Virus record (IMG/VR): IMGVR_UViG_3300027850_000003
Coordinates: 62,001 to 126,000 of that record
DNA length: 64,000 bases
Direction: 5' to 3' (one strand)
Source: a virus
Below, piece by piece: positions 7,790-63,563 of this stretch. Numbering within the stretch: the stretch's first letter is position 1; every line of letters starts with the position of its first letter. The notes beneath the pieces are model-generated. The model worked only from the letters and a program-made list of their open reading frames with translations. It made no database searches and was not told the DNA's origin. The translations under genes and the position numbers were made by a program.

Positions 7790-8884
7790 ATGAAAGATTA
7801 TAGGTTTATCACTTTTGCAGGGGAAGTTCAACCCTCTAAGAAAAGTAAGAAAGATGTTAAGGTTAAAGGTTATGTTAGAAACGGTAAATTTGTTCAATCT
7901 TTTCAACGTAAACAATTGCTAAATGATGAGAATAAAGAGTTAGCTAAAAAAGTAGCTATAGGTAGTTTAATTACATTAGGAGGAGTCTTAGGGCTTGGCT
8001 TGGCTGGAGCTGCTGTAGTTAAGCTCAGATATAATCGTAATTTAATTAAATTTGGTCAACAGATAAAAGCAAACAAGCTTCCAATGGATATGAAAGCTCC
8101 TAAAAAAAATTATGTAGCACCTTATAATATAGGAGATAAGGATTCTATGGATTTTTTTATTGGCCCGCTAAGTGCTAAAGGGGATTCTGGTGGAGCAGCG
8201 TTAATGGTACTTACTAAAAAAGCCTTAAAAAAGACCAAATTAAAAGACCAACATGAGTTAATACCTTTAATTCACAATTATCAAGTGTCAGGAAATGATG
8301 AGTTTCAGCTTTACACTTCTGCTATTGATGCTACTAGAAAAGCGGTAGCAGATGGATATAACATGGACTCAGTTTTGATGTCTAAAGAAATATTTAAATG
8401 GCATACTTTAAACCCTACTAAACCGATTAAATTAATTACTCATAGTGCCGGAGGTTTTCAAAGTAGAGATGTTCCTCATATTTTAAAAGCTGCTGGAGTG
8501 CCACCTAAACTAATGAAGGTATTCTCTATGGGAAGTCCTGATTTTGGTTTAGTGGATGATATAGTTCCTGCAAGTCGTATTATGAATAGTGATGACCTAT
8601 ATACTAATAAACTTAAAACACTAACAAATAAATCTAAAGTATCTTTACCTTCACTAAATAGAAATACTACTTATATAGGTAATGGGTATACTCCTGCTTT
8701 TGAAAAAATAAGGTATACTAAAGCTCTTAAAGAAGCTGACCAAACAGGATATTATGGAGATGTAGATTTACCAAAAAATCAACAAAGAGCAGTAGCTCAC
8801 TCTTTAGGAGCTTATATGAATGGAGAAACTGTTACGTCTAAAAAGAATTTAGATTTATTAAAAAATTTCTTAGCTATAGATTAA
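7790..8884 (+). CDS. Alpha/beta-hydrolase (lipase-like) with N-terminal basic region and membrane segment
   Basis: Residues 1-45 are basic (KKSKKDVKVKGYVRNGKF). Residues 54-77 form a glycine-rich transmembrane segment. The rest resembles an alpha/beta hydrolase: the nucleophile elbow is THSAGG (Ser219), a GSPDFG block follows, and AHSLGAY near the C-terminus could provide the His. Substrate is unknown; a lipid or ester is inferred from the fold. It starts 4 bases after the MuF gene and precedes the protease gene, so it is probably a virion protein, perhaps capsid-internal and ejected. It overlaps the antisense XRE gene by 11 bases. Confidence 0.7.
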   Translation: MKDYRFITFAGEVQPSKKSKKDVKVKGYVRNGKFVQSFQRKQLLNDENKELAKKVAIGSLITLGGVLGLGLAGAAVVKLRYNRNLIKFGQQIKANKLPMDMKAPKKNYVAPYNIGDKDSMDFFIGPLSAKGDSGGAALMVLTKKALKKTKLKDQHELIPLIHNYQVSGNDEFQLYTSAIDATRKAVADGYNMDSVLMSKEIFKWHTLNPTKPIKLITHSAGGFQSRDVPHILKAAGVPPKLMKVFSMGSPDFGLVDDIVPASRIMNSDDLYTNKLKTLTNKSKVSLPSLNRNTTYIGNGYTPAFEKIRYTKALKEADQTGYYGDVDLPKNQQRAVAHSLGAYMNGETVTSKKNLDLLKNFLAID

Positions 8885-10474: not shown

Positions 10475-11083
10475 ATGAAATTCATGAATTCTAACTACGG
10501 CAATGACGGATACAATTACGCTAATTTTCAAAGAGTTTCCGCTGGGCAAGCTGCTAGAAAAGTTGTAAAGGAAAGAAAAACTGTAGAGAGGGGATTAGAG
10601 ATGAAAAAATCTGGTCAGATTGCTACTCCTGGGTCATCCTTCAACTCTAAAAATCCTGCTATGGGTAGAGGAGATTTTGCTCCTAGTGCGTTCCCTAATG
10701 AAGTTGGCCCTCAACCTCTTTATGGCCCTCGCGCTCAAAGTAAAGCATTAAAAGGTACTTTATCTAGGCCTCAGATAAGAGAGCCGGGTGTAGGAAGAAA
10801 TGTTAGGTCTACTGCTGCTGGAGCAAATCAAAGAGCTAGAGACACTTTTAAAACACAGGGGAAAGCTGGAAAAAAAGTTAAATCTGCAATTGCTGGAGCT
10901 AAACAATCTGGTAGAGATGCAGTTTATGCTGGTAAAAAAGGTCTTAAAGCAGCCGGACGTTTTGCTATGAGAAATAAGGTAGGAGTAGGTCTAGCTGCTG
11001 CTGGTGCTTTGGGAGCGGTTGGGTATGGTGTCTACCGTAAGACTCGCTCAGATAAAGGTAGAAAACGTGGAAGCAATGATTAA
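10475..11083 (+). CDS. Basic small head-region protein with membrane segment and RSDKGRKR tail
   Basis: A 202-residue protein, very basic and rich in Gly, Ala and Arg. It starts with an Asn/Tyr-rich stretch ending YANF. Near residues 168-185 is a glycine-alanine hydrophobic segment (VGVGLAAAGALGAVGYGV), followed at once by RKTRSDKGRKRGSND at the C-terminus. The last motif recurs in two other small proteins of the window. No enzymatic domain. The position between protease and scaffold suggests a capsid-internal, DNA-associated or ejected protein (inference). Confidence 0.65.
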   Translation: MKFMNSNYGNDGYNYANFQRVSAGQAARKVVKERKTVERGLEMKKSGQIATPGSSFNSKNPAMGRGDFAPSAFPNEVGPQPLYGPRAQSKALKGTLSRPQIREPGVGRNVRSTAAGANQRARDTFKTQGKAGKKVKSAIAGAKQSGRDAVYAGKKGLKAAGRFAMRNKVGVGLAAAGALGAVGYGVYRKTRSDKGRKRGSND

Positions 11084-11303: not shown

Positions 11304-12334
11304 TGACTACAATTAAACAACTTGAAAGAGAGTACACCGAACTTTACAGTGATACTGTTGAATCTTTAGAACAAGCTTATGAATCTCAAGAAATAGATGA
11401 AGAAGAATTTATTTCTCTTAAGACTCAAACTTTAGCTGAACTAGAAGAAGCATTAGCAGAACTTAGAGGACTAACTCTAGAAGATTTAGAAAACTATAAT
11501 GAAGATGATACAGAAGAATATTCTATGAATAATAACTACGCAAATTTTAGTACGGCAAGCACATATTTAGTTCCAGCAGTTATGGGTCTAATTGATAGTC
11601 ATTATGAAGATCGAGATGAGGCTTTTTATGACATTATGGATTCTACTGGGATTGATGAAGAAGACTTAGAAGGGTTCTTGACTGGTCAACTTGAAGCTAC
11701 TCCTGACTTCATTGATATCTTAAGTGGAATGTTTGAGGAAACCGCCACAGATATCGACTCTGCTCTTGGTCTTCAAATGATGGGAGCTTTGGATCGTGGG
11801 GATACTACAGAAGAAGAACTGGAAGAATCTGATTACGAAGATGACGAGGATGAGGATGATGAGTATTATTATGAGGATGATGTTGAGGAAGAAAGTGATG
11901 AAGTAGACGCTGAAGCTGTTTACTCTTATATCGATCCTCGTGTTCAAGAGTTAGAGTCTAAGATGGCCGACTTTGAACTAAGTAATGAACTTAAAGAACG
12001 TCTTTCTACTATCTCTGACTATGCTCGTCAAGGGATTGATGAACGTTGGTTATCTAAAGCTCAATACGACTTACTGATTGGCTCCTTCAACCGAGATGAG
12101 GATAGAGTAGCTGCATTCTCTCAAACCGCAGAAGCTAATAACGTAGACCTTTCTACTCAACTTTATGCTATTCAATTTGCTCTTAAAGCTGCTGAAAAAT
12201 GTGGAGATCCTAGAATCAACTTTGGCTCTTATATTAATGAAGCTGAATTTTCAGTTAATAGTGAAGAAGAAGAATTAGCAAAGCTTCAAGTAGAAAAGAT
12301 GATTGAAAATCGTTTGTTGTTCAAAAAATACTAA
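11303..12334 (+). CDS. Acidic protein, capsid scaffold candidate
   Basis: The 343-residue protein is very acidic, with a Glu/Asp/Tyr run around residues 170-205, and is mostly helical. Position between protease and decoration/major capsid genes, acidity and helical content fit a scaffold. No sequence family is recognised, so this is inference. An in-frame ATG at residue 75 starts MNNNYANFS, echoing the N-terminus of the 10475 protein, and could be an internal start. Near the C-terminus INEAEFSVNS could be a protease site. Confidence 0.55.
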   Translation: MTTIKQLEREYTELYSDTVESLEQAYESQEIDEEEFISLKTQTLAELEEALAELRGLTLEDLENYNEDDTEEYSMNNNYANFSTASTYLVPAVMGLIDSHYEDRDEAFYDIMDSTGIDEEDLEGFLTGQLEATPDFIDILSGMFEETATDIDSALGLQMMGALDRGDTTEEELEESDYEDDEDEDDEYYYEDDVEEESDEVDAEAVYSYIDPRVQELESKMADFELSNELKERLSTISDYARQGIDERWLSKAQYDLLIGSFNRDEDRVAAFSQTAEANNVDLSTQLYAIQFALKAAEKCGDPRINFGSYINEAEFSVNSEEEELAKLQVEKMIENRLLFKKY

Positions 12335-13215: not shown

Positions 13216-14382
13216 ATGGCATACGTTGCAAGTTTTTTCTCTGAGAGGTTCGTCGCCAAGCAGGTAATGGCTATGGTTGATGAAACTGAACATCAGTTAC
13301 TTAAAAGAGGTAAACTGATTGATAAATATTTTCCTACTCAAATGTTTGATGGAAGAGATTTTGTTGGTCTACTAACTAAGAGAGTCGCCCCTGCTGCATC
13401 TATTGTCGCTTATGGTGCTGAAATTCCATTGGTAAGCTTTGGTGGAGTTGAACGAATGGCTGCTACGTTATTCAAGCTAGGTACTTCACGTCTATATGAT
13501 GAAGAAACTCAGTGGAAAATGATGGAAGCACAGAACTTAGCTATCACTAAAGGTATTAAAGTTCAAAAAGTTTATAATCCTGATGGTACTGTTACTCCTG
13601 GTTCAAGTTCAGATTTAGCTACTATTCTATTTGGTCAAGTTAATGATCTTTTAAGAGGTATTACTGATAGAATGGATCACTTGAAATGGCAAGTGGCTCA
13701 AACTGGTGCAGTAGATATGACTGACCCAATTACAGGTATTCCTTTATCTCTTGATTTTAAGAAGGCTGGAGTTAACTATAATCATTTCCCTACCCCTCTT
13801 ACTCTAACTGGTAATACTGTAACTCCTACTTTGAATAAGTGGAGTGATTATGTAAATGCTCAGGCTCTTCAAAATCTCTCTGATGCCTGTGATACTTACT
13901 ACGATACTAATGGTTATATGCCAGACAAGATTGTAATGAGTCGTAAGTTATGGAAAGATTTCTTACAACAAAGAAGCACTCGTGATGCAGCTAGGCAAAT
14001 GTCTACTGTTGAACTAGGTCTAGTATCTCCTGATATGGGAAGAAAACTACTAGCTATGAGAGACTTACCAGACGTGGAAGTATTTGAAGAAAAGTATCAA
14101 GAACAATTAGCTGATGGTTCAATTGTAGATGTTAACTTCTTGAATAATAATCGTTTTGTATTCCTTAAAGAAGATATGGGGATTAGTGCAATCGGCCCTA
14201 CTCTTGAATCTGTTCCTACTATTATTGGAGGTGGTGATGTTCCTATTGAGCCTAAGTCAGGTATTTATGTAACTACTTATGAGCAAAATAAACATCCTAA
14301 GCAAGACGTATCTATGGCAACTGCAACTTTTCTTCCTATCGTAATGAATCCTAAGCAATTATATTCTCAACAGGTTAAGTAA
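13216..14382 (+). CDS. Major capsid protein (lambda gpE-like)
   Basis: The 388-residue protein resembles the phage major capsid protein E family. It has an N-terminal helix, a DETEHQLLKRGKLID region, and a central strand region with LPDVEVFEEKY. The conserved C-terminal FLPIVMNPKQ segment follows. It would form the icosahedral shell with an HK97 fold. The leader is unusual: 34 bases of only A, T and one G, with no Shine-Dalgarno, although this should be the most expressed protein. The stop overlaps the next start (TAATG). Confidence 0.85.
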   Translation: MAYVASFFSERFVAKQVMAMVDETEHQLLKRGKLIDKYFPTQMFDGRDFVGLLTKRVAPAASIVAYGAEIPLVSFGGVERMAATLFKLGTSRLYDEETQWKMMEAQNLAITKGIKVQKVYNPDGTVTPGSSSDLATILFGQVNDLLRGITDRMDHLKWQVAQTGAVDMTDPITGIPLSLDFKKAGVNYNHFPTPLTLTGNTVTPTLNKWSDYVNAQALQNLSDACDTYYDTNGYMPDKIVMSRKLWKDFLQQRSTRDAARQMSTVELGLVSPDMGRKLLAMRDLPDVEVFEEKYQEQLADGSIVDVNFLNNNRFVFLKEDMGISAIGPTLESVPTIIGGGDVPIEPKSGIYVTTYEQNKHPKQDVSMATATFLPIVMNPKQLYSQQVK

Positions 14383-25097: not shown

Positions 25098-26876
25098 ATG
25101 AAATGTCAAATCAACGCACCAATCGAAGCTTTATATGTTAGTAATTTCTTAGATGAGATTCCTAAAGGTATAGTAAATAAAGGAGCTTGTGGAGTAGGAA
25201 TGAGTTCTATTGCTCTTGAAGATAATTATCCTACTATAATAGCTGTTCCTACTATTGAAGTTATTAAAAATAAAACTGCCCAATACCCAAATAACAGAAG
25301 GTTAGAATCTGTATTCGGTTATTACGCAGATATTAAAGAGAAAAATCTAATTCACTATGTTAAGTCTACCACAGTTCCTAAAATCTTAGTTACTTATGAC
25401 TCTTTCCATAGGGTAGCTAAATTAGTAGATAAGAATAAATATCGAGTAGTAGTGGATGAATTCTCTGATTTGTTAGATGCTTATAGCTATAGAGAAAAAG
25501 CTATTGAACATTTACTTACCTCAGTTCAAGAGTTTGATTATGTTAGCTATATCTCAGCTACTCCACTTAAAGAAGAGTATTATCCTGAAGCTCTTAAAAA
25601 CCTTAATGAGTATGAGATAGTTTGGCAAGGTACAGTCAAAATTAAAGTTGAAAGAAAGAAAACTAATAAACCTTATAAAGCTGCTTGTAATATTATCGAC
25701 AGTTATCGAGCTGGAGGGGGAGAAGGATTATTGATGCCTAATGGTCACTATTCAAAAGCTGCTTATTTTTTTGTTAATTCAGTAAATTCAATTGCTAATA
25801 TTCTAGAAGCTTCTGATTTAAATCCAACTGATGCAAGAGTTATTTGTGCTAATAACGAAGTGAATCAAAAAAAGCTAGAAAATTATCCAATAGAAACTGC
25901 TTTAGCTCCTGAGAAGAAGTTCAATTTTATTACTAGCACTGCTTTCAAAGGATGTGACTTTTACTCTGAGACTGGAGTTACTTATATTATTAGTAACACT
26001 TCTAACAGTAATACATTAATCTCGATTGATACGGATGTTAAACAAATAGCGGGTAGAATTCGTAACGCTAATAATCCTTTCAACAATCACATTTATCACA
26101 TTTACAATACTGATAATTCATTACTATCTGCTGAGAATTTTGAGAAATTAGTACAAAAGAAAATAAAAGCTACTAACTCTATTATTTCAATGTTTTATAA
26201 AGGGAACGAAGATGAACGAGCTATTTGGTTAGAGAATTATTATTTGAAAGCTAAATGTAGATTTAGAGATGACGACTATACTTATCTAACTGAAGAAGGA
26301 GATATTATTTTCAATGATTATGCGGTTCTAAATGATAAAAGAAGATGGGAAGTTTCTAGTAATGTTTATCGAGATGGAGTGTCTATTAGACAAGCTTATA
26401 TTGATGCTGGATGTTTTGATATTTCTACTTTCCAAGACTTTGAGAAGATTGAAGATGATGGGTTTCTTAGCAAACTTACTAATGGTAGTTTTAAAGAATA
26501 TTGTCAGAGGTATATCAATAACTCAGATGAAAGACTTTATATTGGGGATAGATTCCCTGTTATTAAAGAAGCTTTTACTAAATTAGGTGAAGCTAGGATG
26601 AAAGCTCTTAGCTATAATGCCCAAAGATTTTTAGCTGAAATGCAAGCTACTTCGGATACTACAAAGAACTACATAATTAAAGAATTAAAAGCGAATCTTA
26701 AAGTAGGGGAGGAATATGTCTTATCTGATATTAAGGGTTTACTCAATAGTCTTTACTATAAAGTAGGAATCAAAAAGAAAGCTAAAGCTACTGAAATTGA
26801 TAATTACCTTGAAGTTGAGAAACGACAGAGACGAGTAAATGGAGTTCTTAAAAACATGATCGTAATCATTAAGTAA
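25098..26876 (+). CDS. SF2 helicase-like protein H1
   Basis: The 592-residue protein has recognisable superfamily 2 motifs. The P-loop position is GACGVGMS (29-36), where the usual Lys is Met. Motif Ia-like PT follows. DEFS (120-123) is in the Walker B position, SATP (153-156) is motif III, and QIAGRIR (about 316-322) is motif VI. A C-terminal domain (last ~150 residues) is shared with H0, H2, H3, the relic at 26969 and the GIY-YIG fusion. The ATG at 25098 is preferred to the GTG at 25089 because it matches H2's N-terminus. It has its own promoter between tail tube and chaperone genes. Loss of the P-loop Lys is shared by all copies; related phage families with GxGG-type loops exist. Role may be replication or element mobility; unknown. 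Confidence 0.8.
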   Translation: MKCQINAPIEALYVSNFLDEIPKGIVNKGACGVGMSSIALEDNYPTIIAVPTIEVIKNKTAQYPNNRRLESVFGYYADIKEKNLIHYVKSTTVPKILVTYDSFHRVAKLVDKNKYRVVVDEFSDLLDAYSYREKAIEHLLTSVQEFDYVSYISATPLKEEYYPEALKNLNEYEIVWQGTVKIKVERKKTNKPYKAACNIIDSYRAGGGEGLLMPNGHYSKAAYFFVNSVNSIANILEASDLNPTDARVICANNEVNQKKLENYPIETALAPEKKFNFITSTAFKGCDFYSETGVTYIISNTSNSNTLISIDTDVKQIAGRIRNANNPFNNHIYHIYNTDNSLLSAENFEKLVQKKIKATNSIISMFYKGNEDERAIWLENYYLKAKCRFRDDDYTYLTEEGDIIFNDYAVLNDKRRWEVSSNVYRDGVSIRQAYIDAGCFDISTFQDFEKIEDDGFLSKLTNGSFKEYCQRYINNSDERLYIGDRFPVIKEAFTKLGEARMKALSYNAQRFLAEMQATSDTTKNYIIKELKANLKVGEEYVLSDIKGLLNSLYYKVGIKKKAKATEIDNYLEVEKRQRRVNGVLKNMIVIIK

Positions 26877-26968: not shown

Positions 26969-27169
26969 GATAGTGAAGTTAAAAAATTATTTAGTGGGAA
27001 ATCTGGTTTTTACTTATCTAAGGATATAAAAATTATACTGAGTTATCTTTATAAAAATTTAGGAGTGGATAAGAAAGCTAAAGCTAATGATATAGAACCT
27101 GTTTTAAACGTTAAAGCTACTGCAAAAAAGATAAATAAAAAGACTGTAGTAGGTTACGAGTTGATATAG
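26969..27169 (+). pseudogene. Relic of a fifth helicase-family gene (C-terminal 66 codons)
   Basis: Directly after an in-frame TGA, 66 codons without a start codon read DSEVKKLFSGKSGFYLSKDI and continue to KKINKKTVVGYELI before a TAG stop. This aligns with the C-terminal domain of H3 (FYSCKDMKILL, KINDKTVKGYQIVI) better than with the adjacent H1. The helicase core is gone. It shows that an older family member was largely deleted next to H1. The rest of the gap to 27355 holds nothing I recognise. Confidence 0.75.
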
Positions 27170-27355: not shown

Positions 27356-27429
27356 TGACCCTGGTAGAAGTCGAATCTACAACATCCAAATTAGAAGTTT
27401 GGTACTCTGTCCAGTTGAGTTACAGGATC
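27356..27429 (-). tRNA. tRNA-Arg (anticodon TCT)
   Basis: Read on the minus strand, a complete cloverleaf of 74 bases. The acceptor stem is GATCCTG/CAGGGTC, the D stem ACTC/GAGT. The anticodon stem CCAAA/TTTGG has loop CTTCTAA, giving anticodon TCT. The T stem is GTAGA/TCTAC with a TTCGACT loop. No CCA is encoded. It would read AGA, the arginine codon that dominates this phage. Confidence 0.93.
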
Positions 27430-40370: not shown

Positions 40371-40445
40371 GGAGGTAGACAAGAAACTGGTATTATCCAC
40401 TATTTTAGAAAATTACCTTAAGAGTAAAACCAAATAATTTTGCTA

Positions 40446-40471
40446 AACTGATGACAAAGTATAATTGTTGT
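40446..40471 (+). repeat. 26-bp inverted repeat, left end of H2 unit
   Basis: Perfect reverse complement of 42340-42365 over 26 bases. Similarity extends outward with a further ATAATTTT block after a short 3-4-base gap. It contains ATGACA (40451-40456), which forms the -35 box of the H2 promoter. Confidence 0.85.
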
Positions 40472-40479
40472 AGTATAAT
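40451..40479 (+). promoter_or_regulatory. H2 promoter
   Basis: ATGACA (40451-40456) and TATAAT (40474-40479) are separated by exactly 17 bases, a near-consensus sigma-70 promoter, 40 bases before the H2 ATG. The -35 half lies inside the left inverted repeat; the right repeat lacks the -10 box. Confidence 0.7.
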
Positions 40480-40519
40480 GTAGATAGACAAGAACAAAAG
40501 TTTATCGCCAAAACAAAAA

Positions 40520-42304
40520 ATGCAACATAACATTATCGAAGCACCAATTAAAGCCATCTACCTAAGTGAGTTTCTTACTGAGTTACCTCAAGGAATACTA
40601 AATAAAGGGGCAACTGGAGTAGGAGGGACAGAAATGGCTCTTAAATCATCAGAGTCTTATATAATAGCTGTTCCAACAATAGAAATAATAGTTAACAAAA
40701 AGAATCAGAACCCAGAGATAGTAGAAGTTTATGGAGATACTACATTTAAAGAGTTTTCAAAACAGATTAAAAGTAGAGTCAAGTATAAGATTTTCACTAC
40801 TTATGATTCACTTCCTAAAACTATTAATTGGCTTACTTCTTTAAGTACCAACCCATATAAAACTAGATTATTAGTTGATGAATACCACAAAATACTAAAT
40901 GATTATAGCTATCGTGATAAGGCAATTGATAATCTACTAAAACAAGCGAGTAAATTTGAGTATGTAACTTATTTATCTGCAACTTCTATTAAGCCTAAGT
41001 TTACTCCTAGAATATTAGAATCTCTTGATTATACTGAGATTAAATGGTCTACTAAAGAGATTAAATTACATCGGAAGAAAACTCCTAATCCTTTTGCTGC
41101 AGTAGTTAAAATTATTACTAGATACAAAGCTAATAATTACCAGATGAAAATCAATGGTCATATTAGTAATGAAGCATATTTCTTTGTGAATTCGGTTAAG
41201 TCAATTAAAGATATTATTAACAACGCTGGACTTACTCAAGATGAAGTGAAAATTATATGTTCTACTACTGATAGAAATCAACACATACTAGATGATTTTG
41301 AGATTGGAAATGTTCATGATCCTAATAAACCTTTTACGTTCGTTACTTCTAAATCATTCCTTGGAGTAGATTTTTACTCGGATAGTGGAGTCATTTACGT
41401 TGTTAGTAATGTTAATAGAAAAAATACTCTACTAGATATTTCTACTGATATCACTCAAATAGCTGGCAGGATTCGTAATATCAATAACCCATTCAAAGAT
41501 ACTATCTTCCATATTTATAATACTGGGATACAAGAGCTAAGCCAACAACAGTTCAAAGATAATATTGAAAAGAAAATTGAAAACACTAATATTCAAATCA
41601 ATGTCTTTAACAATAAGTTAGAACCAAAAGAAAAAGCTGCTTTCTTAGTTCGATATGAGTTAGATATCGAAAAAGATTACAGCTATTACAATCCGGAAAC
41701 TAATGAATTAGAGTTTAATGAACTTAAAAAACTAAATGAGGAGTTTAACTACGAAGTTCTATTCACTATTTATAATAATGGTATTAGTATTCGTCAAGGA
41801 TATTTAGAAGCAGGATTTACTCTTGAAGGAAACCAAGAATATGAAAAAGTAGAAAAAGATTTCTTAGCAACTGCTACTAGCATAAGTTATCAGTCAATGT
41901 TAAAGCAATATGTGGAATTAATATCTCAAAAAAATCTTAGTTCTGATGACCAATATACTTTAAATAGTATTGATAAGTTAGATCCTACTATTAAGAAAGC
42001 AGTAGATATTTTAGGAACCTCTCGTATTAGAACTCTACGATATCATAAAAGTAAAATAACTAATGAACTTTATTATAACTCTAACCAAGTTAAAGAAGCT
42101 ATTAAAAGTAGTTTAGCTAAGAAAATAGAAAATAATAAATTTTACAGTTTCAATGAGTGTAAAGCTTTACTTAGTGACATTCATATCATTCTTAAAATAG
42201 ATAAAAAATGTAAAGGTAAAGATGTTTTAAGTTATTTAGAAGGAAAAGTTATTAATAAACGAATAGAAGGAATCCTACTTCAAGGATGTATTTTTGAGGA
42301 CTGA
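40520..42304 (+). CDS. SF2 helicase-like protein H2
   Basis: The 594-residue protein has the same architecture as H1. The loop is NKGATGVGGTEMAL (P-loop Lys replaced by Gly). DEYH is in the Walker B position, SATS is motif III and QIAGRIRN is motif VI. A shared C-terminal domain with RIRTL and FYSFNECKALL follows. It is the most divergent complete copy and is closest to H0. The leader before ATG is A-rich without SD. It forms a single-gene transcription unit between inverted repeats. Role unknown. Confidence 0.8.
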   Translation: MQHNIIEAPIKAIYLSEFLTELPQGILNKGATGVGGTEMALKSSESYIIAVPTIEIIVNKKNQNPEIVEVYGDTTFKEFSKQIKSRVKYKIFTTYDSLPKTINWLTSLSTNPYKTRLLVDEYHKILNDYSYRDKAIDNLLKQASKFEYVTYLSATSIKPKFTPRILESLDYTEIKWSTKEIKLHRKKTPNPFAAVVKIITRYKANNYQMKINGHISNEAYFFVNSVKSIKDIINNAGLTQDEVKIICSTTDRNQHILDDFEIGNVHDPNKPFTFVTSKSFLGVDFYSDSGVIYVVSNVNRKNTLLDISTDITQIAGRIRNINNPFKDTIFHIYNTGIQELSQQQFKDNIEKKIENTNIQINVFNNKLEPKEKAAFLVRYELDIEKDYSYYNPETNELEFNELKKLNEEFNYEVLFTIYNNGISIRQGYLEAGFTLEGNQEYEKVEKDFLATATSISYQSMLKQYVELISQKNLSSDDQYTLNSIDKLDPTIKKAVDILGTSRIRTLRYHKSKITNELYYNSNQVKEAIKSSLAKKIENNKFYSFNECKALLSDIHIILKIDKKCKGKDVLSYLEGKVINKRIEGILLQGCIFED

Positions 42305-42339
42305 TGATAAATATAGTAGATACTAGGAGTCGTTTAACA

Positions 42340-42365
42340 ACAACAATTATACTTTGTCATCAGTT
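42340..42365 (-). repeat. 26-bp inverted repeat, right end of H2 unit
   Basis: Partner of 40446-40471, beginning 36 bases after the H2 stop. It is followed 20 bases later by a short terminator. Confidence 0.85.
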
Positions 42366-42382
42366 ATAAAAATTATAGTTAA

Positions 42383-43314: not shown

Positions 43315-45998
43315 TGACTACTAAACAAATTCCCTTAAATAATATCCTCAACACTTTTAACGAATTACCCTTAGAACAAATAAATAAATTAGCTGCTTCT
43401 CCTGGTACTTTTCTTTATAACCCACTAACTAAAAAAATTCTATTATGCTGTAAAGTTAACACTAAAATTACTAATGACCCTCAACCTCTTAAAATACTAG
43501 GTAACAAGGAGATATTTATTAGTAATCAAATAGAGCTTCCTAATTTTATAGTAGAACATAAATTAGTTGGAGGATTTACTCTTAGTAGAAGTTTTGAAAA
43601 TCATCCTTCTATTGGATTTAATTTGATATGTAGTAGAGATGAGATATTAGCCTTAAGAGGTAAATTTAGAGATATTGAAAAGAAATATGTCTTCTACGAT
43701 ACCCCTTTTCGATTAACTAATTACTCAGAAGATATAGAGAATAGAAGTGAGCATCCTATAGGTTCTTACTCTATTAGTTTATCTTTTGAGGGTTGGTATT
43801 CTAAGCTAATCAATACACCTTTCTTTGTTAAAAATAGAGGCAGTCTAACAAGTAGTCAAAACTTTGAAGCTCCTGAGTGTAAAATTGAGGGAAGCAATAT
43901 TCCTAAATCTGGTCTGTCTAACTCACTTAATAAGCCTAATGAGTTAGTAATTCCTCTTAGTAGTTTTGCTAGTAGATTAGGGTTTAACTATTTAGGCTAT
44001 AACTTTCTATGTAATTATCAGAAACCAGTTGCCCCAGATTTAACTACTACTTTTGCTAGTGAATTAGATAGTAGAAAAAGAACTAAAGGACTTTATACTC
44101 TTTTTTCTTCTAATGAGGGGGTTAAGACTATTACTTGGGCTAAACCTTCTACTTTCAAAGTTAAGGAAAGTAAAATTATTAGTAACGTTTCTTACTCGGA
44201 TAACTTAGCAGAATTAGGGTATAAACCTAGTGAGTTATCTTGGAATCAATCTGGAGAAGAACCTTTAGATAATCAAGAAGAAGATACTTTTCAAAATACT
44301 CAACCTTCTTGGCTTCAATTAAATATAAAAATTAAAGAAAGTATTCTTGACCCAGATAACGCTACCTCTCCTCCTAATGACCAAGGATTGATTAAGACAA
44401 TGGATCTTAACTATGATATGTCAGGAAAGACTAAGATTAAAACTTTTACTAGGAGAGAAGGAACAACTATCTTATGGGAAAAAATAGAGACTTGGGGATT
44501 TATGTATCTATCCAAAGAAATAGTAATAACGAGAGACGGAGAAAAGATAATTGAAGCTTCTCCTAGTAATTATTGGGGACTTACTGAATCTCAAGAGACT
44601 ACTCATCTATACGATTCTGTTACTGGGTACTACTTAGGAAATAAGATTAGTGGTTGGAAAATGTGTCGCTTCAAACAAGAATCTTCTACTGAAACAGCTA
44701 AACTAGAAATAGAAAAAGAAGGGTTAGGAAACCCTCTTAGTAAAGCTTATGAGGAAGATGTAGTAGTTAGAGGAGAAAAAGTATTTGAATTAAATGAAGT
44801 GGTGGACTGTTATAGATTTAGAGCCGTCCCTATCATTGGTGGAACTCAATATATCTTAAGACAATTGAGAGATTATTATCAAGATTCTAACAATTCAACT
44901 CCTAGTATTCCTTATCAAGTATGTACTAAAGATGGAAAATTAATTACTAAATATGCAATTGACCCTACTTGGGTTGAGCCTATGTATATTGGAGAAGAAT
45001 ATAATTACTACTCTTGTTATTCTAGGATTGAAGACCCTGCTAATATTGCTTTAAGAAGAGAGTTTAGAGACTCCCCACCAGAAACTCCTACTGATAACCC
45101 TATTTATAATCCCACATTATCTACTGGTAGAGAACAAGAAGTATATAAAAAAGTATTTATCCACAGGAGTAAAGGCACTATCCAAGAAGAAGGATTAGGT
45201 TTTTCCTCTTCTGGTAGTTCAGTTAAAGATAATTTTATTGGAGATGACAAAGATGGAGTAGAAGATAGATATGAAACTCATGTAACTCAACGTTCTGCAC
45301 AAGATAGTAATTTTAGAAATGCTACTACTACTATTACTGTTGAAGAATCTACTGGTAGACCAGGAGAACCTGGAAGAAAACAATTACCTTTTGTACTTAA
45401 AACTGAAGAAAGTCTTAAAGAAAACTCAGATATCTATTTCCAAATGATAGAGACTAAGAGAGTGGATAAGACACAAGAGCCTAAAGATAGCTATAAATAC
45501 CTCTTAGTTACTCAAGGATATAACGTTAATGACCCAGTACAAGGTTCCGTTTCTTATAATACTAGACATAAATCGGAAGCATTTTTAGGAGCTATTACTG
45601 ATTTAGAAATAGAAGATATGAATAGTAATTGTTCTATCTCTTTTACTACTTTATTTAGACCTAAAATTATAGAAGGAAGTAAACTTAATTTTAGTTACTC
45701 TTGGGATTCATGGAAGACTAGAGTGATAAGTAATAGTTCCTCAGTTAATATAGTTGGTTATCTTGAATTAGAAGATGGAACCTTACTCACTGAAGTCACA
45801 GGCTCCACTAATTTAAGCTTAGGAATTGATAGTAGTTTGGGAAGCTTGACCTCACTTAAAAAAATTAAATTACCAAAAGAACCTGCTCAACCAGAAGTAT
45901 CTCCTAATAAAAACGATGCTTATATTTTTAATATGTATACTCGTGGTAAAGAACTAGGTAAAATATTCTACGGATTTGGTTCTAGATATAGCGGTTAA
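43314..45998 (+). CDS. Large tail-tip / baseplate protein (894 aa)
   Basis: An 894-residue, beta-rich protein without a recognised enzymatic motif. It includes a charged, proline-rich middle (residues ~590-700) and a C-terminal beta domain. It follows tape measure and distal tail genes, where hub or baseplate proteins are usually encoded. Function by position only. Confidence 0.5.
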   Translation: MTTKQIPLNNILNTFNELPLEQINKLAASPGTFLYNPLTKKILLCCKVNTKITNDPQPLKILGNKEIFISNQIELPNFIVEHKLVGGFTLSRSFENHPSIGFNLICSRDEILALRGKFRDIEKKYVFYDTPFRLTNYSEDIENRSEHPIGSYSISLSFEGWYSKLINTPFFVKNRGSLTSSQNFEAPECKIEGSNIPKSGLSNSLNKPNELVIPLSSFASRLGFNYLGYNFLCNYQKPVAPDLTTTFASELDSRKRTKGLYTLFSSNEGVKTITWAKPSTFKVKESKIISNVSYSDNLAELGYKPSELSWNQSGEEPLDNQEEDTFQNTQPSWLQLNIKIKESILDPDNATSPPNDQGLIKTMDLNYDMSGKTKIKTFTRREGTTILWEKIETWGFMYLSKEIVITRDGEKIIEASPSNYWGLTESQETTHLYDSVTGYYLGNKISGWKMCRFKQESSTETAKLEIEKEGLGNPLSKAYEEDVVVRGEKVFELNEVVDCYRFRAVPIIGGTQYILRQLRDYYQDSNNSTPSIPYQVCTKDGKLITKYAIDPTWVEPMYIGEEYNYYSCYSRIEDPANIALRREFRDSPPETPTDNPIYNPTLSTGREQEVYKKVFIHRSKGTIQEEGLGFSSSGSSVKDNFIGDDKDGVEDRYETHVTQRSAQDSNFRNATTTITVEESTGRPGEPGRKQLPFVLKTEESLKENSDIYFQMIETKRVDKTQEPKDSYKYLLVTQGYNVNDPVQGSVSYNTRHKSEAFLGAITDLEIEDMNSNCSISFTTLFRPKIIEGSKLNFSYSWDSWKTRVISNSSSVNIVGYLELEDGTLLTEVTGSTNLSLGIDSSLGSLTSLKKIKLPKEPAQPEVSPNKNDAYIFNMYTRGKELGKIFYGFGSRYSG

Positions 45999-53259: not shown

Positions 53260-53835
53260 ATGCCACAAGATTTTTATTCTACTACTCCTGGGTCAGGTCT
53301 TAAAATTGCTGCTGAATCTTATACTGATAGCGGAAACACTCTTTATGTTCCTATCATTAGTAATAAAGTAGTCACCTCTATTGGTACTAATACTGGAGGA
53401 ATTGGTACTACTTCTTATGCAGCTAATCAATTAATGGGAACTTCTCAATTTACTTTTTCTGACGTAGCTCTTAAAGCTGGTTTAGGTGGAGTAATTCAAA
53501 ATGCTTCTTTATACTGTGAAGTTGTATCTACTGGTCAATATCTCCTAAGACTTTTCAGTAAACCTATTACTACTGTATTTGCTGATAGAGCTAATTATGC
53601 CTCTTATGCTTTAACTGATGTAGAAGCTCGAACCTTTATTGGGGATATTGAATTCTCTTTCCCTTTAGCTTCTTCTCTTAACACTACTTACTCAGTTAAC
53701 GGGATATCAATGGCTTTCTCAACTGATGATGCTGGTTCTCCTGCTATTTATGGATTACTCTTAGCTAGAAATGCTCACTCTCTCCCCTCTGTAACTGGTC
53801 AAGGGATTAGGATTAACTTAAATGTTTTACTATAA
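53260..53835 (+). CDS. Hypothetical virion protein (191 aa)
   Basis: A 191-residue Ser/Thr-rich beta protein. No recognised domain. Member of the fibre operon by position and composition. Confidence 0.5.
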   Translation: MPQDFYSTTPGSGLKIAAESYTDSGNTLYVPIISNKVVTSIGTNTGGIGTTSYAANQLMGTSQFTFSDVALKAGLGGVIQNASLYCEVVSTGQYLLRLFSKPITTVFADRANYASYALTDVEARTFIGDIEFSFPLASSLNTTYSVNGISMAFSTDDAGSPAIYGLLLARNAHSLPSVTGQGIRINLNVLL

Positions 53836-53840
53836 TAATT

Positions 53841-54353
53841 ATGAAAACACAAAATGTAGTAAAGATTAATCCCATAGTAGAAATCACTTCTCCTATATTA
53901 CTTCAATGTAAGTCAGGGGAGTGTGGGAGATGTCCTAATGGTACTGGGAAAATGTTATGGGTTCCTGGAGGTATTGTTAATTTAGATGGAACTATTGGTA
54001 GTGTCCTTCTTAATTTTCAATATAATTTCTTTGATAAAAGTACACAAAGTGCGTCTCCTATTACATTTAATCTTGCAACAGGATTTAACTCTTTAACTAG
54101 CACTACTTTCTCTTATAGTAACCCACCTAATAAAGCTTGGGCAACAGCTAATAATGCTAATAATACTATTAATCTATCTCCTAGTTTAATGGGAGGAAGT
54201 GATATTGTTAGAAATATTAGACTTACTGTTCTTCAATCTACTGGTGCTTGGCTATTCTTTCGTCAACCTAATCCTGCTATTTCTAACGTTCATGATGCTC
54301 TTTGCTTCGAGTATAACCATGAGAGACGATTGATTACTTTTAGATCCTTTTAA
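53841..54353 (+). CDS. Hypothetical virion protein with CxxxxCGRCP motif (170 aa)
   Basis: The N-terminus has CKSGECGRCPNGTG, three closely spaced cysteines that could bind metal or form a disulfide. The remainder is beta-rich. Last gene of the fibre operon. Family unknown. Confidence 0.5.
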   Translation: MKTQNVVKINPIVEITSPILLQCKSGECGRCPNGTGKMLWVPGGIVNLDGTIGSVLLNFQYNFFDKSTQSASPITFNLATGFNSLTSTTFSYSNPPNKAWATANNANNTINLSPSLMGGSDIVRNIRLTVLQSTGAWLFFRQPNPAISNVHDALCFEYNHERRLITFRSF

Positions 54354-57409: not shown

Positions 57410-59092
57410 ATGTATTACTCCGATAAATATTCAGAAATTCCAAATGGCATAGTTGACAAAGGAGCTTGTGGAATAGGTTTAACTAGCTATGCTCTTGAGA
57501 ATAATGTTCCTACTGTAGTAGTTACTCCTACTGTAGCTATGATTAAAAACAAAGTATCTCAATACCCAAATAATAGAAGGTCAGATTCAATTATAGGATT
57601 TTACCAAGGAGTATCACTAGCTACTATTAAAAATTATATTGAATATACTGCTATACCTAAAATAATGGTAACATTTGATAGTTTTTATAAAATAGTCCCT
57701 TTTATAGATGACACTTACCAAATCATAGTAGATGAGTTTAGTGAATTATTAGATGCCTATAACTACAGAAATAAAGCAATATCAAAATTACTTATTGAAG
57801 TTCAAAAGTTTAGTAAAGTTTCTTATGTATCAGCTACTCCTACTAAAGTCGAATATCTCCCTCTTCAATTAAAAGATTTAGATTACACTACTTTAGAATG
57901 GGATGATTTAACTAAGATCAATATTGATTTACTTCATAAAAAAAGACCTATTCAAACTGTTAGAGCTTTAATAAATAAGTACCGTAGTGGTTTAGTAGAA
58001 ATTAACGGAATTAAAAGTGATGCAGGATATTTCTTTGTTAACAGTGTTCGGATGATTAAAGAAATATGTGAAAAATCAGAACTCTTAAATTCTGAAGTTA
58101 GAATTATTTGCTCGGATACAGATAAGAATAAACGTACATTAGGTGATTATGATATTTCTACTTCACTTGATCCCGAAACACTATTTACTTTTATTACTTC
58201 TTGTAGCTTTAAAGGTTCAGATTTCTATAGTGAAAGAGGTGTAGTATTTGTAGTATCCAATAATACTAATACACATACATTAATAACTATTGACACAGAC
58301 ATTATTCAAATCGCAGGTAGGATAAGAAACCCTACTAATCCTTTCCGAAACTACTTATGTCACATCTTTAATGTTAATCCTCTTAGTTTAAGTAGAGAAG
58401 AATTTTTAAAAATAACTGAGGAGAAGATTAAACAAAGCAATACCTTATTACAAGGATATAGTAAACTTACTGATGAAGAACGAGATTTATTTCTCTCAAC
58501 TCAAAATTTAGAAAACTTTTATATCTCTATAACTGAAGAAGGAGTTCCTTACTATGACGAGATGTTGTATTTATTAGATAAAAGAAGATATGAGGATATT
58601 GCTCAAGTATATAAAGATGGTCTTTCTATTAATAGTTATTATTCATCTTTAAATGAAGTAGATGTATTGTCTAGCACCAAATTAGATATTGACTATTTAG
58701 TTAATAATTCTTTTTATTCTCTTTGTAAAACTGCTGTTGAAGGTAAAGGGGATTTAGAAACTATTTATAAACAATTTCCATTAATTAAAGATGCTATTGA
58801 AAAATTAGGAAAAGAAAAAATTAAAGCTTTAGGTTTTCATATCACTAAAATTCAATACGAAATTGACGACTTTGACAAAAAAGATAAAGTTAAAACAGTG
58901 GTGATAAAAGAAATAGACAAAGAAAAATTTTATAGTTGTAAAGATATGAAGATATTACTTGGATACATTTATGCCAGACTAGGTATTAGAGCAACCGCTA
59001 AAGCTTCAGATATTTTAGAATACTGTAACGCTAAGTTATGTTATAGAAAAATAAACGATAAAACAGTAAAAGGATATCAAATAGTAATTTAA
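57410..59092 (+). CDS. SF2 helicase-like protein H3
   Basis: The 560-residue protein is clearly paralogous to H1. Its loop is DKGACGIGLTSYAL (P-loop Lys replaced by Leu). DEFS is in the Walker B position, SATP is motif III and QIAGRIRN is motif VI. The shared C-terminal domain ends KTVKGYQIVI. The N-terminus is about 10 residues shorter than H1/H2, and a TAA directly upstream excludes a longer start. Its 3' end abuts that of the convergent GIY-YIG fusion gene. Function as for H1 unknown. Confidence 0.8.
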   Translation: MYYSDKYSEIPNGIVDKGACGIGLTSYALENNVPTVVVTPTVAMIKNKVSQYPNNRRSDSIIGFYQGVSLATIKNYIEYTAIPKIMVTFDSFYKIVPFIDDTYQIIVDEFSELLDAYNYRNKAISKLLIEVQKFSKVSYVSATPTKVEYLPLQLKDLDYTTLEWDDLTKINIDLLHKKRPIQTVRALINKYRSGLVEINGIKSDAGYFFVNSVRMIKEICEKSELLNSEVRIICSDTDKNKRTLGDYDISTSLDPETLFTFITSCSFKGSDFYSERGVVFVVSNNTNTHTLITIDTDIIQIAGRIRNPTNPFRNYLCHIFNVNPLSLSREEFLKITEEKIKQSNTLLQGYSKLTDEERDLFLSTQNLENFYISITEEGVPYYDEMLYLLDKRRYEDIAQVYKDGLSINSYYSSLNEVDVLSSTKLDIDYLVNNSFYSLCKTAVEGKGDLETIYKQFPLIKDAIEKLGKEKIKALGFHITKIQYEIDDFDKKDKVKTVVIKEIDKEKFYSCKDMKILLGYIYARLGIRATAKASDILEYCNAKLCYRKINDKTVKGYQIVI

Positions 59093-59827
59093 CACCTCTA
59101 CTCCTTTAACAAGTTTACCTTTTAACCTAACAGTTTTATATTTAACTTCTGCGTAATTAGCTATATCAATAGCTTTTCCTTTCTTTGCAATATCTAGTTT
59201 TTCATAAATATTATTGAGAGTATTTTTAACAAAAGCTAGAGAATAGAAAGTCTCTATATCTAAAAGTCGAATGAGTTCATCTTTAATACATTGCTGAATA
59301 TCAGTGTTATTAAATTTAAGCTCATCTATTAATCTATTAACAAGATAACCTAAAGCTTTCATTCTCTTGGCTCCTAATTTAGTAAAAGCCTCTCTAATAA
59401 TAGGAAATCTATCACCAATATAAAATCTTTCATCTGGGCTACTAATATACTTCTGACAATATTCTTTAAAACTACCATTAGTAGGAAACCCATCATCTTC
59501 AATCTCTTCTACCTCGTATTTTTCTGGTAATTCTACTTTAATTGTTACTCCACCTAAATAAACTTTTTCTTTATTAAATGTAGGATGCAGAGTATTAATT
59601 AAATAAGTCTCAATAATATCTGAGTCTGCTAGAGATTCACAAGGATAATACTCAATTACATCTATTAGTGATTTCCATTCCTGATACTCTGGATCATTAG
59701 GATTAAAATGATCATTTAGCCTACTTCTAAGATTTGAGCTTCTACCAACATAAGCTAGTTCATTTTTGACATAAAGAAGATAAACCCCAATTTTTTCTTT
59801 TAACGGTTTTAAATGAAACTTAATCAT
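59036..59827 (-). CDS. GIY-YIG nuclease fused to helicase-family C-terminal domain
   Basis: Residues 1-95 are a GIY-YIG domain (GVYLLYVKNELAYVGRSS, ETYLINTLHP). From about residue 110 the protein continues EDDGFPTNGSFKEYCQKYIS and SPDERFYIGDRFPIIREAF, almost the same as H1's C-terminal domain. The family stop after KLVKGVEV is missing. The frame runs on for 18 codons into the antisense of H3's end, so the last residues (NYYLISFYCF) are probably read-through sequence. The helicase core is absent. The fusion links nuclease and helicase families and suggests the C-terminal domain is a portable DNA-targeting module (inference). Confidence 0.8.
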   Translation of the reverse strand: MIKFHLKPLKEKIGVYLLYVKNELAYVGRSSNLRSRLNDHFNPNDPEYQEWKSLIDVIEYYPCESLADSDIIETYLINTLHPTFNKEKVYLGGVTIKVELPEKYEVEEIEDDGFPTNGSFKEYCQKYISSPDERFYIGDRFPIIREAFTKLGAKRMKALGYLVNRLIDELKFNNTDIQQCIKDELIRLLDIETFYSLAFVKNTLNNIYEKLDIAKKGKAIDIANYAEVKYKTVRLKGKLVKGVEVLNYYLISFYCFIVYFSIT

Positions 59828-59930: not shown

Positions 59931-60011
59931 TGGGTGAGAGTAGAATTGAACTACTGGTGCTTACGCTACTGTTTTACAGACAGCTACCTTTACCAACAGG
60001 AGGACTCACCC
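59931..60011 (-). tRNA. tRNA-Tyr (anticodon GTA)
   Basis: Read on the minus strand, acceptor stem GGGTGAG/CTCACCC. The anticodon stem GCTGT/ACAGT has loop CTGTAAA, giving anticodon GTA. A long variable arm typical of bacterial tRNA-Tyr is present. The T stem is AGTAG/CTACT with loop TTCAATT. No CCA is encoded. It lies about 100 bases upstream of the GIY-YIG fusion gene on the same strand. Confidence 0.9.
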
Positions 60012-60575: not shown

Positions 60576-63563
60576 ATGAATGACGACCAAGTAGTACAGC
60601 AAATATCTAAATTACTGAAGAATACCTCTTTTATTGGTTATGCCTTAAATGGTGGAATAGGAACTAAGATAAACGTTCGCAATACTGAGACAGGTAAGAC
60701 TATTCAAGCTCTTAGTATTAATGTTGATTCTACTGGAGAAGTCTTAGTAGTTAAAGACTCAGAAGATGGTCAATATAAAGCAGTTACATTTAAGACTGCT
60801 GAGAAGGTAAGTACAAAGATAATTCAGCTAAGAAAGACTAAACCTACTAATGACAAGAAAATAATTGAATATACAGATTCTGATATTGAAGTATTCTACC
60901 TATTCGTTAAATTAATAGATACTGGTAGCCCTGTTGCTACTGATTTAAATTCTACTTGGATTAGGAGAGGAAGCTCTTGTACTCAGTTCGTAGGAGCTTA
61001 TGAAAGATGTAATTACGCAGCTAGAGAGACTATTGGAGGGGTTAGTCATACTGGACTAGAGTATCAACCTTATAATACTCTTCAATCTTGTCTTAACGAT
61101 GATTTGGGGAGAGATGCAAAGACTCCTCATGGTACTAAGGATGCACAAGGAGGAGGACTTGGCAATAAAATCTACTCTACTAGGATGACCTCAGTAGAAG
61201 AGCAATATATGCTAGGAGCTTTAACTTCTCATGATAATGCTAATGGTACAAGTTTTAAGAAACTATTTGGTTATGGATCTATTTTAGAATGTTCAGGGGC
61301 TATGTTCATGGATGGTTGGGGGCCATCAACGAATCAAGCTGGGGAAGAGTATACTCGTTGCTATTTTCAATATTTCCCAGGTTTTACTAATGCTTGTACT
61401 CCTGCTATGCAAGTTGCTGGTTATTGTACTAATCAAGGCTTTATCAATAGTAGATGTCCTCTTCCTGGTCAACCGTTACCTCCTGGTCAACCTAGTGTCG
61501 GAGATATTGATAATAGTTGGGGTCATATTTATGGATGGAAAGATTTACCTTACTCATTTTTTTATAGAAGAAGATTTTACCAAGGTTATGTAGGAGGGGT
61601 AAGTGTCCCTGGTTATTTTTTAATATTACAAGTGAATGAAGACCAAACTCCTACTATCCCAGAAGGTTTCTTTCCTTGGGTTCCTGGTTGCCCTTCTAAT
61701 AATCAAGGAGGGCCGTATGATGGTAGTGGAGGTAATAGATTCCCTGATGGAGTTCCACCTGTTCAGAAGAGAGATATGAAGCTATCTACTCATAGAGCTG
61801 AAATTTGGTTAGGAAGTAGTAAGAAAGAAGAAGCTATTAAATTACATGAACTAGGTGCTAGTGATTTATTTAGTGGAATGTATAACTCATTTATTACTAG
61901 AGCAGATGAAACAATAGTAGATACTGAAAACAGACTTCAAAGAGGGCCTAACTTTACTCCTACTAACGAAGAGGTTACTGTTCATAATAAAATATACGAA
62001 AATTGGAACAAAAATAGAATTGATTTAAATATTAATCCTAAAGTCTGGATTTATATTATTAATAATACGCCTAAAGCTGCAACCTCTACTACTGGTTATA
62101 CTCTTGATAATCATGTTAATGATCCTACTAATGCTACTCTTCACAGAGCTATTAATAACTTATACAATAGAACTATTAATTTATCGGTAGTAGATAATAA
62201 AACCCAGATAATACATCTTAAATTAGGGTTAACTTCTAGAAGCACTCTTTCTAATAGCGATTGTAAAGGAATAGGAGGCTGGGATGGTTTTTTTAGAGAT
62301 AGCACTCAGAAACTTAGTAATCAGAGTTGGGAATATCAAAAATACATAACTATTACTGTAAAAGATTGGAGTATATTATCCTCTACTAATACACTTGATA
62401 CTACTAAATTAGAAACAGAAGATTTTTGGAATACAGATAATATTAAACGTAGATTTTTTACTTCTTTTGGAGGTCATAGGATTAACTTAAATCTTAAAGA
62501 CACTTATGACCAAATACTACTTAGAAATAACGCTGAAATAGATACTGAAAAAATAATAAGTGACCTTCATTTTGAACAACTTAACTACTCACTAAAATTT
62601 ATAACTCCCACTACTAGCACTTTGGGTGGAGAATTATATTTTTCAGGATTAAACTTTCTCCCTTCTCCTTCTAACTTTTACAATCCTAGTAGGTATTACG
62701 CTTTAAGCTCTAGAAGTTGGTGGGAATTATGGGCTAAAGGGACTTATAGTAAAAAAAATAAAAGATTAAGTTCTATAGTTGGTTATGAAAAAAATCGTCA
62801 TCAAGTAGTGAAAAGTTATGGGTTAGGTGCAAATTTAACATATAATAATGCTGCTACAGACCCATATTTATATAATGAAAGTTATTTTGAATATTTAAGT
62901 AGTAGACCTAAAGTATTTATTCCCTCTTTAATTAAAAAATTAAGAGGAGATAAGCTGTTTTTTAATAGTAACCGCTATATAACTGATAAACAAGAAACTT
63001 TAGAAAAAATAGGATCTTTGTTTTTCTTTTCTAGCCCTACAAGTAATTGGACAAATGATTTCTTTTTCTCTAATGTCCCAGAGTACCAATATATCTCTCT
63101 TCCTAGTCTTTATTATGGTAATGATAACGGTATAGAAACTTTAACATCTAATAATAATTCTTTACAACCTGACTTTCTGGGTAATAACAATTTTTTAAAA
63201 ATTATGAATACTCGTTCATGGTTTCAAAGACTTTGGGCGCAATTTATATATGATGAAAATATTAAAGTAGATGTGGATTCTTATAAAGATGTTAATTTTA
63301 CACTTCCTACTAACATCCCTCAGTATAAAAAATTTAGTTTATTTAAAGAGGGGATTACTGCTGAATATCCTTTCTCTACTCGTATAAGTTTTAGTGATCC
63401 TGCTTTAGAGTTAAACACAGTTCTTTCTCCTGGTAAGCTAGAAATAGCTAATAAACAAGTAACTATTAACAAACCCACTAATGTAACTTTAGACCCGAAT
63501 ACTAGCTTTCTAGTCTATTTATACCCCAATGTTACTGTGACTAAAAAAACCAAGGAAATTTGA
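60576..63563 (+). CDS. Large virion-type protein (995 aa)
   Basis: The 995-residue protein is Asn/Ser/Thr-rich with about a dozen cysteines in the first 400 residues and a proline-rich PLPPGQP segment near 297-303. The N-terminal 110 residues look like a small alpha/beta domain, the rest beta-rich. No hydrolase motif seen. Likely a tail or fibre protein outside the main fibre cluster. It is flanked by two minus-strand genes of one family. Role by composition only. Confidence 0.5.
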   Translation: MNDDQVVQQISKLLKNTSFIGYALNGGIGTKINVRNTETGKTIQALSINVDSTGEVLVVKDSEDGQYKAVTFKTAEKVSTKIIQLRKTKPTNDKKIIEYTDSDIEVFYLFVKLIDTGSPVATDLNSTWIRRGSSCTQFVGAYERCNYAARETIGGVSHTGLEYQPYNTLQSCLNDDLGRDAKTPHGTKDAQGGGLGNKIYSTRMTSVEEQYMLGALTSHDNANGTSFKKLFGYGSILECSGAMFMDGWGPSTNQAGEEYTRCYFQYFPGFTNACTPAMQVAGYCTNQGFINSRCPLPGQPLPPGQPSVGDIDNSWGHIYGWKDLPYSFFYRRRFYQGYVGGVSVPGYFLILQVNEDQTPTIPEGFFPWVPGCPSNNQGGPYDGSGGNRFPDGVPPVQKRDMKLSTHRAEIWLGSSKKEEAIKLHELGASDLFSGMYNSFITRADETIVDTENRLQRGPNFTPTNEEVTVHNKIYENWNKNRIDLNINPKVWIYIINNTPKAATSTTGYTLDNHVNDPTNATLHRAINNLYNRTINLSVVDNKTQIIHLKLGLTSRSTLSNSDCKGIGGWDGFFRDSTQKLSNQSWEYQKYITITVKDWSILSSTNTLDTTKLETEDFWNTDNIKRRFFTSFGGHRINLNLKDTYDQILLRNNAEIDTEKIISDLHFEQLNYSLKFITPTTSTLGGELYFSGLNFLPSPSNFYNPSRYYALSSRSWWELWAKGTYSKKNKRLSSIVGYEKNRHQVVKSYGLGANLTYNNAATDPYLYNESYFEYLSSRPKVFIPSLIKKLRGDKLFFNSNRYITDKQETLEKIGSLFFFSSPTSNWTNDFFFSNVPEYQYISLPSLYYGNDNGIETLTSNNNSLQPDFLGNNNFLKIMNTRSWFQRLWAQFIYDENIKVDVDSYKDVNFTLPTNIPQYKKFSLFKEGITAEYPFSTRISFSDPALELNTVLSPGKLEIANKQVTINKPTNVTLDPNTSFLVYLYPNVTVTKKTKEI

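Follow-up and report, generated by a model that had tools for sequence, protein, structure and literature searches.

In the window, a 64,000-nt stretch covering positions 62,001 to 126,000 of the viral record IMGVR_UViG_3300027850_000003 (G000; 129,969 bases), a single long open reading frame on the + strand (H2; 40520-42304, 594 aa) is enclosed by inverted repeats. From the ORF list and domain and fold searches, H2 is an SF2-helicase-like protein with a C-terminal domain at about residues 455-594. The 26-bp repeat arms (40446-40471 and 42340-42365) were exact reverse complements, as an earlier note had reported at the same coordinates, and the pair was found once in the record; by chance, such an exact 26-bp inverted pair is expected about 1.3e-5 times per 64 kb. 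Allowing up to three mismatches, neither the window (100 shuffles gave 0) nor the complete record had a further copy of the arm. A second, outward block of similarity claimed in the same note was also recovered: the gapped similarity of the arms extended over 40434-40478 on the left (+) and 42334-42376 on the right (−), scoring 62 where shuffles reached at most 36, with the outer block ATAATTTT at 40434-40441 and 42369-42376. In an ungapped inverted-repeat scan on pieces of the record, in which the pair around the paralogue H1 was split by a piece boundary, just two inverted repeats scored above 17, one around H2 and the other around a paralogue at 12 kb. A 17-bp exact inverted repeat at record positions 8684-8700 and 10654-10670 (1,953 nt apart, with no helicase copy) was at chance level.

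The left repeat coincides with a sigma-70-like promoter (ATGACA-17-TATAAT; 40451-40479, + strand) that matched the consensus at 11 of 12 positions and was the top promoter of the region, in line with the earlier description of a −35 box in the left repeat and a 17-base spacer to TATAAT. The −35 box lies inside the repeat and the −10 box just beyond its exact core. Because the −10 is missing at the right copy, the right repeat is not an equivalent promoter. The left repeat is upstream of the predicted transcription start, and therefore the two repeats cannot pair in the H2 mRNA; from this position we infer that the repeats would function at the level of DNA, and an RNA hairpin between the repeats was rejected as their main role. 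A role as promoter and terminator only, which the note had named as a challenge to its own reading, would likewise account poorly for the right repeat, given a left repeat that lies outside the predicted transcript.

Pfam searches with H2 returned only SF2 helicase families, weakly; PHROGs, NCBIfam and PADLOC gave no match, and a PDB sequence search gave nothing meaningful. Domain searches found no transposase or DNA-strand-transfer domain in H2, in agreement with the proposal that the unit holds one gene and its promoter and no transposase. Motifs II (DE), III ([ST]AT) and VI (QxxGRxR) were intact in 55 of 55 family members. The canonical motif I lysine (position 36) was found in none of the 55, and a lysine seven residues earlier was invariant; this deviant motif I (H2 residues 29-37, window ~40604-40630) had invariant Lys29, Gly33, Gly35 and Ser/Thr37. 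As the usual lysine is absent from all 55 members, helicase activity is uncertain.

An AlphaFold2 model of H2, built from a 13-sequence alignment (mean pLDDT 79), had the core of an SF2 helicase and, at the C-terminus, a helical domain whose end (helix-helix-strand-strand) we read, in the model, as winged-helix-like. The top Foldseek match in the PDB was HSV-1 OBP with OriS DNA (9hgi, E 5.7e-10), and in a fold search of BFVD the first match was an unnamed protein (24% identity), with several annotated replication origin-binding proteins from rank 6. Both results favour a reading in which every cassette acts as a replication origin of its own and encodes the matching initiator, an origin-binding helicase that binds inverted boxes surrounding an AT-rich core in the manner of herpes OBP at OriS. 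However, Brr2 was close behind in the PDB (E 4e-9) and VIA-align placed generic DEAD/DEAH proteins first (Z 15-17), in rows that covered H2 residues 7-442 and from which a missing family is not thereby excluded. The Pfam origin-binding family of the herpesvirus type (Herpes_ori_bp) matched 0 of 13 members at E ≤ 1, and several origins in one genome would be unusual. We therefore consider this reading unlikely. Pfam nuclease families were also absent among the 13 members.

H2 is one of five full-length SF2-helicase-like paralogues in the 130-kb record, at 12, 60, 87, 102 (H2) and 119 kb; their paralogy was established by sequence comparison, the other four sharing 35-51% identity with H2. One further match, the sixth, was partial and is the C-terminal part of a GIY-YIG protein. 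The paralogue search placed the 3′ end of H1 (record 60645-62477) at window positions 1-477 (+), followed by its right repeat unit at 477-542 (−; gapped score 83 against a shuffle maximum of 36); its left unit, at record 60576-60640, is outside the window. The 87-kb paralogue (87k; 25098-26876, +), 41% identical to H2, has direct flanking repeats at −141 to −79 and +25 to +87, and no flanking repeat was detected at the 119-kb paralogue (119k; 57410-59092, +). A tRNA-Arg (27356-27429) lies near 87k and a tRNA-Tyr (59931-60011) near the pair formed by 119k and a GIY-YIG gene.

The family extends to other genomes. The relative G001 had two further copies, one 65% identical to H2, and profile searches found more in G002-G007. 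Family relatives occurred at 26 bacterial-genome loci, mostly in Bacteroidales and also in Hymenobacter and Pseudanabaena, and a relative search gave 31 IMG/VR loci, ten of which duplicated earlier ones. Another large viral contig, IMG/VR 3300046323_000587 (226 kb; loci L132 and L137), held at least two family copies. Sequence homologues with 23-30% identity were present in Psychrobacter phage D'Alembert (CAH1193522, 'DEAD-like helicase'), Phab24 and ET-ABTNL-9. Among 50,697 phage records, there was no distant DNA match to the H2 locus.

Repeats at the ends were a property of most phage copies. In a test of 300-nt flanks, in which a pass required z > 5 and 0 out of 100 shuffles, flanking repeats were present at 11 of the 16 phage copies compared with 0 of 184 other ORFs (≥250 aa) of the same six genomes, a contrast that is partly one of intergenic setting and a control that is imperfectly matched, because control genes mostly have coding flanks. 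The five copies that did not pass were the 12-kb copy, 119k, G004_90k, G006_19k and G007_15k. At the 12-kb copy, a 47-nt inverted repeat (45/47) was found further out, at record positions 12152-12198 and 14235-14281, outside the window. By eye, its arms differ at two positions, and these changes compensate for each other in the pairing of the ends of each arm; further in and close to the gene, this copy has another pair of repeat units, in direct orientation. For distant relatives, 57 further loci were considered, of which 5 lacked an ORF, 2 came with short flanks and 10 were duplicates; 5 of the 40 newly tested loci were positive, namely L097 and L110 (same repeat), L129 and L130 (near-duplicates) and L133. 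The homologues in D'Alembert, Phab24 and ET-ABTNL-9 differ from H2 in that no flanking repeats were found at these three loci.

The orientation of the repeats bears on how the unit could work. Repeats were inverted at H2 and most other repeat-positive copies, and direct at G002_39k, G003_127k and 87k. A recombinase flipping H2 at its repeats (phase variation) would suit the exact inverted repeats around a promoter-gene unit, yet direct repeats at other copies cannot invert, and inversion would make no on/off switch because the gene would flip as a whole and take most of its promoter with it; such an invertible segment is scarcely credible. A transposon or a mobile insertion cassette that ends in inverted repeats, with an unknown transposase acting in trans, would explain the perfect 26-bp ends at H2, the 45/47 ends at the 12-kb copy and the long imperfect ends at H1 and others. 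It would not explain the three repeat-positive copies with direct repeats, and the ends differ among copies of one genome, so that one transposase would hardly recognise all of them. In addition, we saw no target-site duplication by eye and no transposase domain, and the H2 ends, which the earlier note had proposed to seek in other phages, have no second copy in the record and no exact match in IMG/VR contigs. A transposon is thus very unlikely.

The repeat units are about 45-62 bp long and mostly private to each copy. The left unit is close to the start codon and overlaps the promoter, and in several copies the −10 lies between half-sites. Pooled over 14 copies (G006 and G007 omitted), the units were imperfect palindromes, with z 4.5 upstream and z 5.9 downstream compared with a mean z of 0.4 for 109 control upstream regions (12 shuffles each), a result that also speaks for the origin reading; the palindromy of the H2 units themselves was not significant (z 0.0 and 0.2). 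Similar units were shared by the same-site pair G004_102k/G005_90k, by 87k and the 57-kb copy of G001 (57k; z 10.4) and by the 12k/20k pair (z 7.2). Units of different clades reached z 7.0, nearly the value for 12k/20k, and there was no unit match between H2 and its closest relative, G001_37k. Between unit similarity and the identity of the C-terminal domains the correlation was weak (rho 0.18, p 0.06, 105 pairs), also with the same-site pair removed (rho 0.16, p 0.10).

The position of the left unit near the start codon, around the −10 in several copies, raises regulation as the sole function of the repeats: the left repeat would be an operator/promoter, the right one would offer another place for binding, with looping, road-block or antisense control as variants, and the gene would move no differently from any accessory gene, by illegitimate recombination. 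That no clean insertion boundary was found is in keeping with this explanation. However, autorepression needs no 3′ copy of the repeat, yet 11 of 16 copies have one. Two observations on gene movement, set out below, also oppose it: homology between the 87k and 57k cassettes stops at the 3′ unit, and a helicase remnant retained a 3′ unit at another site. Regulation alone is a possible but doubtful account.

Presence and absence of the helicase genes were then compared between genomes. G003, G004 and G005 hold both genes that flank H2, with no helicase and no repeats between them (3/3); in G002, G006 and G007 the flanking genes had no counterpart, which makes these genomes uninformative, and G001 stops short of the site. 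The earlier note had regarded relatives that lack H2 and keep both repeats as evidence against a mobile unit, and these three relatives keep neither. Across the helicase family, presence/absence variation at intergenic sites was found among close relatives. A clean empty site, which the note had also suggested looking for, was found in none of the comparisons made, because neighbouring small genes also differ.

The locations of related copies differed as well. G000 and G001 have a collinear layout, and identity between their structural proteins reaches 94%. Their copies 87k and 57k share 80% identity yet occupy non-homologous sites. DNA similarity between 87k and 57k beyond the gene was limited to positions −57 to −1 upstream (the promoter unit) and to the right unit downstream. 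Similarly, 119k and G004_90k belong to the same clade and occupy different sites, with no flank similarity at all. Directly relevant to displacement, an orphan helicase C-terminal stub of 66 residues (26969-27166, +; G000 88969-89166; E 2e-17) lies behind the right unit of 87k and belongs to another clade, that of 12k/20k, being 59% identical to the 12-kb copy. G001 has no helicase at the site matching 87k, but it has a 16-residue helicase C-terminus, and 3′ of this stub lies a repeat that matches the unit at the 20-kb copy in G005 (z 15.3). The stub at 26969-27166 appears to be a fossil of displacement and, with C-terminal stubs at the 87k site in both genomes, one clade therefore appears to have displaced another. 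Helicase copies thus seem to change their location among related viruses. The minimal mobile element proposed earlier is partly supported, in that the family moves between sites and H2 and its repeats are missing in three relatives; it is not supported as a transposon, because some repeats are direct (3 of the 11 repeat-positive copies) and neither a transposase nor a DNA-strand-transfer domain was found.

The C-terminal domain of the family is not confined to helicases, since the last ~130 residues of the helicase-like proteins recur in three other proteins of G000 and G001. One is a GIY-YIG nuclease (Pfam) fused to the helicase C-terminal domain (59036-59827, −; G000 121036-121827; E 1.2e-39), convergent with 119k and overlapping it. 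The second fusion (G000 45064-45867) has the domain at E 1.2e-19 and GIY-YIG by Pfam, and the third protein (G001 53467-54069) carries the domain (E 1.2e-20) with a weak Pfam match to GIY-YIG (E 0.07). A further GIY-YIG fusion with the domain lies directly behind the helicase at locus L116. Locus L101 (Dysgonomonas) has two ORFs with the domain upstream of its helicase (195-896 and 947-1978), and their N-terminal parts match no Pfam family. A single-sequence model of the GIY-YIG fusion had a mean pLDDT of 37.9 and was left unused.

A GIY-YIG nuclease-like ORF of 98 aa without the common domain (599-895, +) begins 56 nt behind the H1 right repeat. Three of five GIY-YIG ORFs of this type in the six genomes adjoin a helicase copy (H1, 119k and G004_19k), as counted with a profile built from those five and one Phab24 gene, a sixth, weak match (E 0.003) being dropped from the count. 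The helicase homologue of Phab24 adjoins a GIY-YIG-like gene, and that of D'Alembert adjoins an HNH gene according to the record annotation. No flanking units were found at the GIY-YIG fusion genes, and no units common to these genes and 87k/57k.

Taking these results together, we give about an even chance to the proposal that H2 is a member of a multi-copy family of free-standing mobile helicase genes that carry their own units at both ends and are spread by recombination, each encoding an SF2-helicase-like protein similar to viral origin-binding helicases in its predicted fold. Against the proposal stand the lack of a clean empty site, the weak correlation between units and C-terminal domains, the H2 units without significant palindromy and without a match at G001_37k, the copies and distant relatives that did not pass the repeat test, the imperfectly matched control, and the absence of units at GIY-YIG fusion genes. 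The C-terminal domain of the family probably binds DNA, and its sites would be the units. The left unit, which overlaps the promoter, would then probably serve as an operator for autorepression, and the unit pair probably marks the cassette ends or a focus of recombination or replication. Cassettes could spread among co-infecting phages by recombination-dependent gene replacement, like homing genes, perhaps with help from the GIY-YIG nucleases that have the common C-terminal domain. An alternative is that each cassette replicates selfishly, as a helicase gene of the origin-binding type between its own sites. Several incompatible kinds would compete and displace one another within a phage genome, and GIY-YIG nucleases, having captured the DNA-binding domain of the helicase, would cut the sites of rival cassettes as weapons or homing partners; we think this improbable. 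With H2 as a mobile helicase gene, its type could represent a class of small mobile gene not described before. To our knowledge, phage single-gene mobile elements are known mainly as endonucleases, and a literature search turned up no account of helicase genes that are mobile and have end repeats private to each copy. For a helicase-like gene, movement as a cassette that brings its own sites would be another means of persistence for a single gene.

H2 shares features with several known systems. Like the T4-like free-standing homing genes (seg, mob; PMC2988022), the H2 family consists of single intergenic genes that are patchy among relatives. In contrast to seg and mob, the H2 family is helicase-like, has no nuclease domain and has a recognition-like unit at both ends. 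In I-TevI (PMC2988022), a DNA-binding domain can act on an operator at its own promoter as well as on the mobility target, and by analogy the C-terminal domain of H2 may do both. The herpesvirus UL9/OBP (PMC12543377) is an SF2 helicase that binds inverted boxes around an AT-rich spacer, and it resembles H2 in having an SF2 helicase N-domain plus a C-terminal domain. The H2 family differs in that it has no Pfam-level match to it, has a deviant motif I, is multi-copy and apparently mobile, and has putative sites that flank the gene itself. ICP1 Odn (gp88; PMC8263062) is an origin-directed nuclease of the GIY-YIG superfamily that shares a DNA-binding domain with a replication protein; its target is a set of semi-palindromic repeats, and it cuts the sites of that replication protein. 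The GIY-YIG genes with the C-terminal domain resemble Odn in being nucleases fused to a domain of another protein. They differ from it in that the domain comes from the phage's own multi-copy SF2-helicase-like family and the domain order is opposite, and their binding and cleavage are putative. The presence of a common C-terminal domain in helicases and GIY-YIG nucleases of the same genomes resembles the Odn/RepA arms race and makes the acquisition of new targets by nucleases directly testable.
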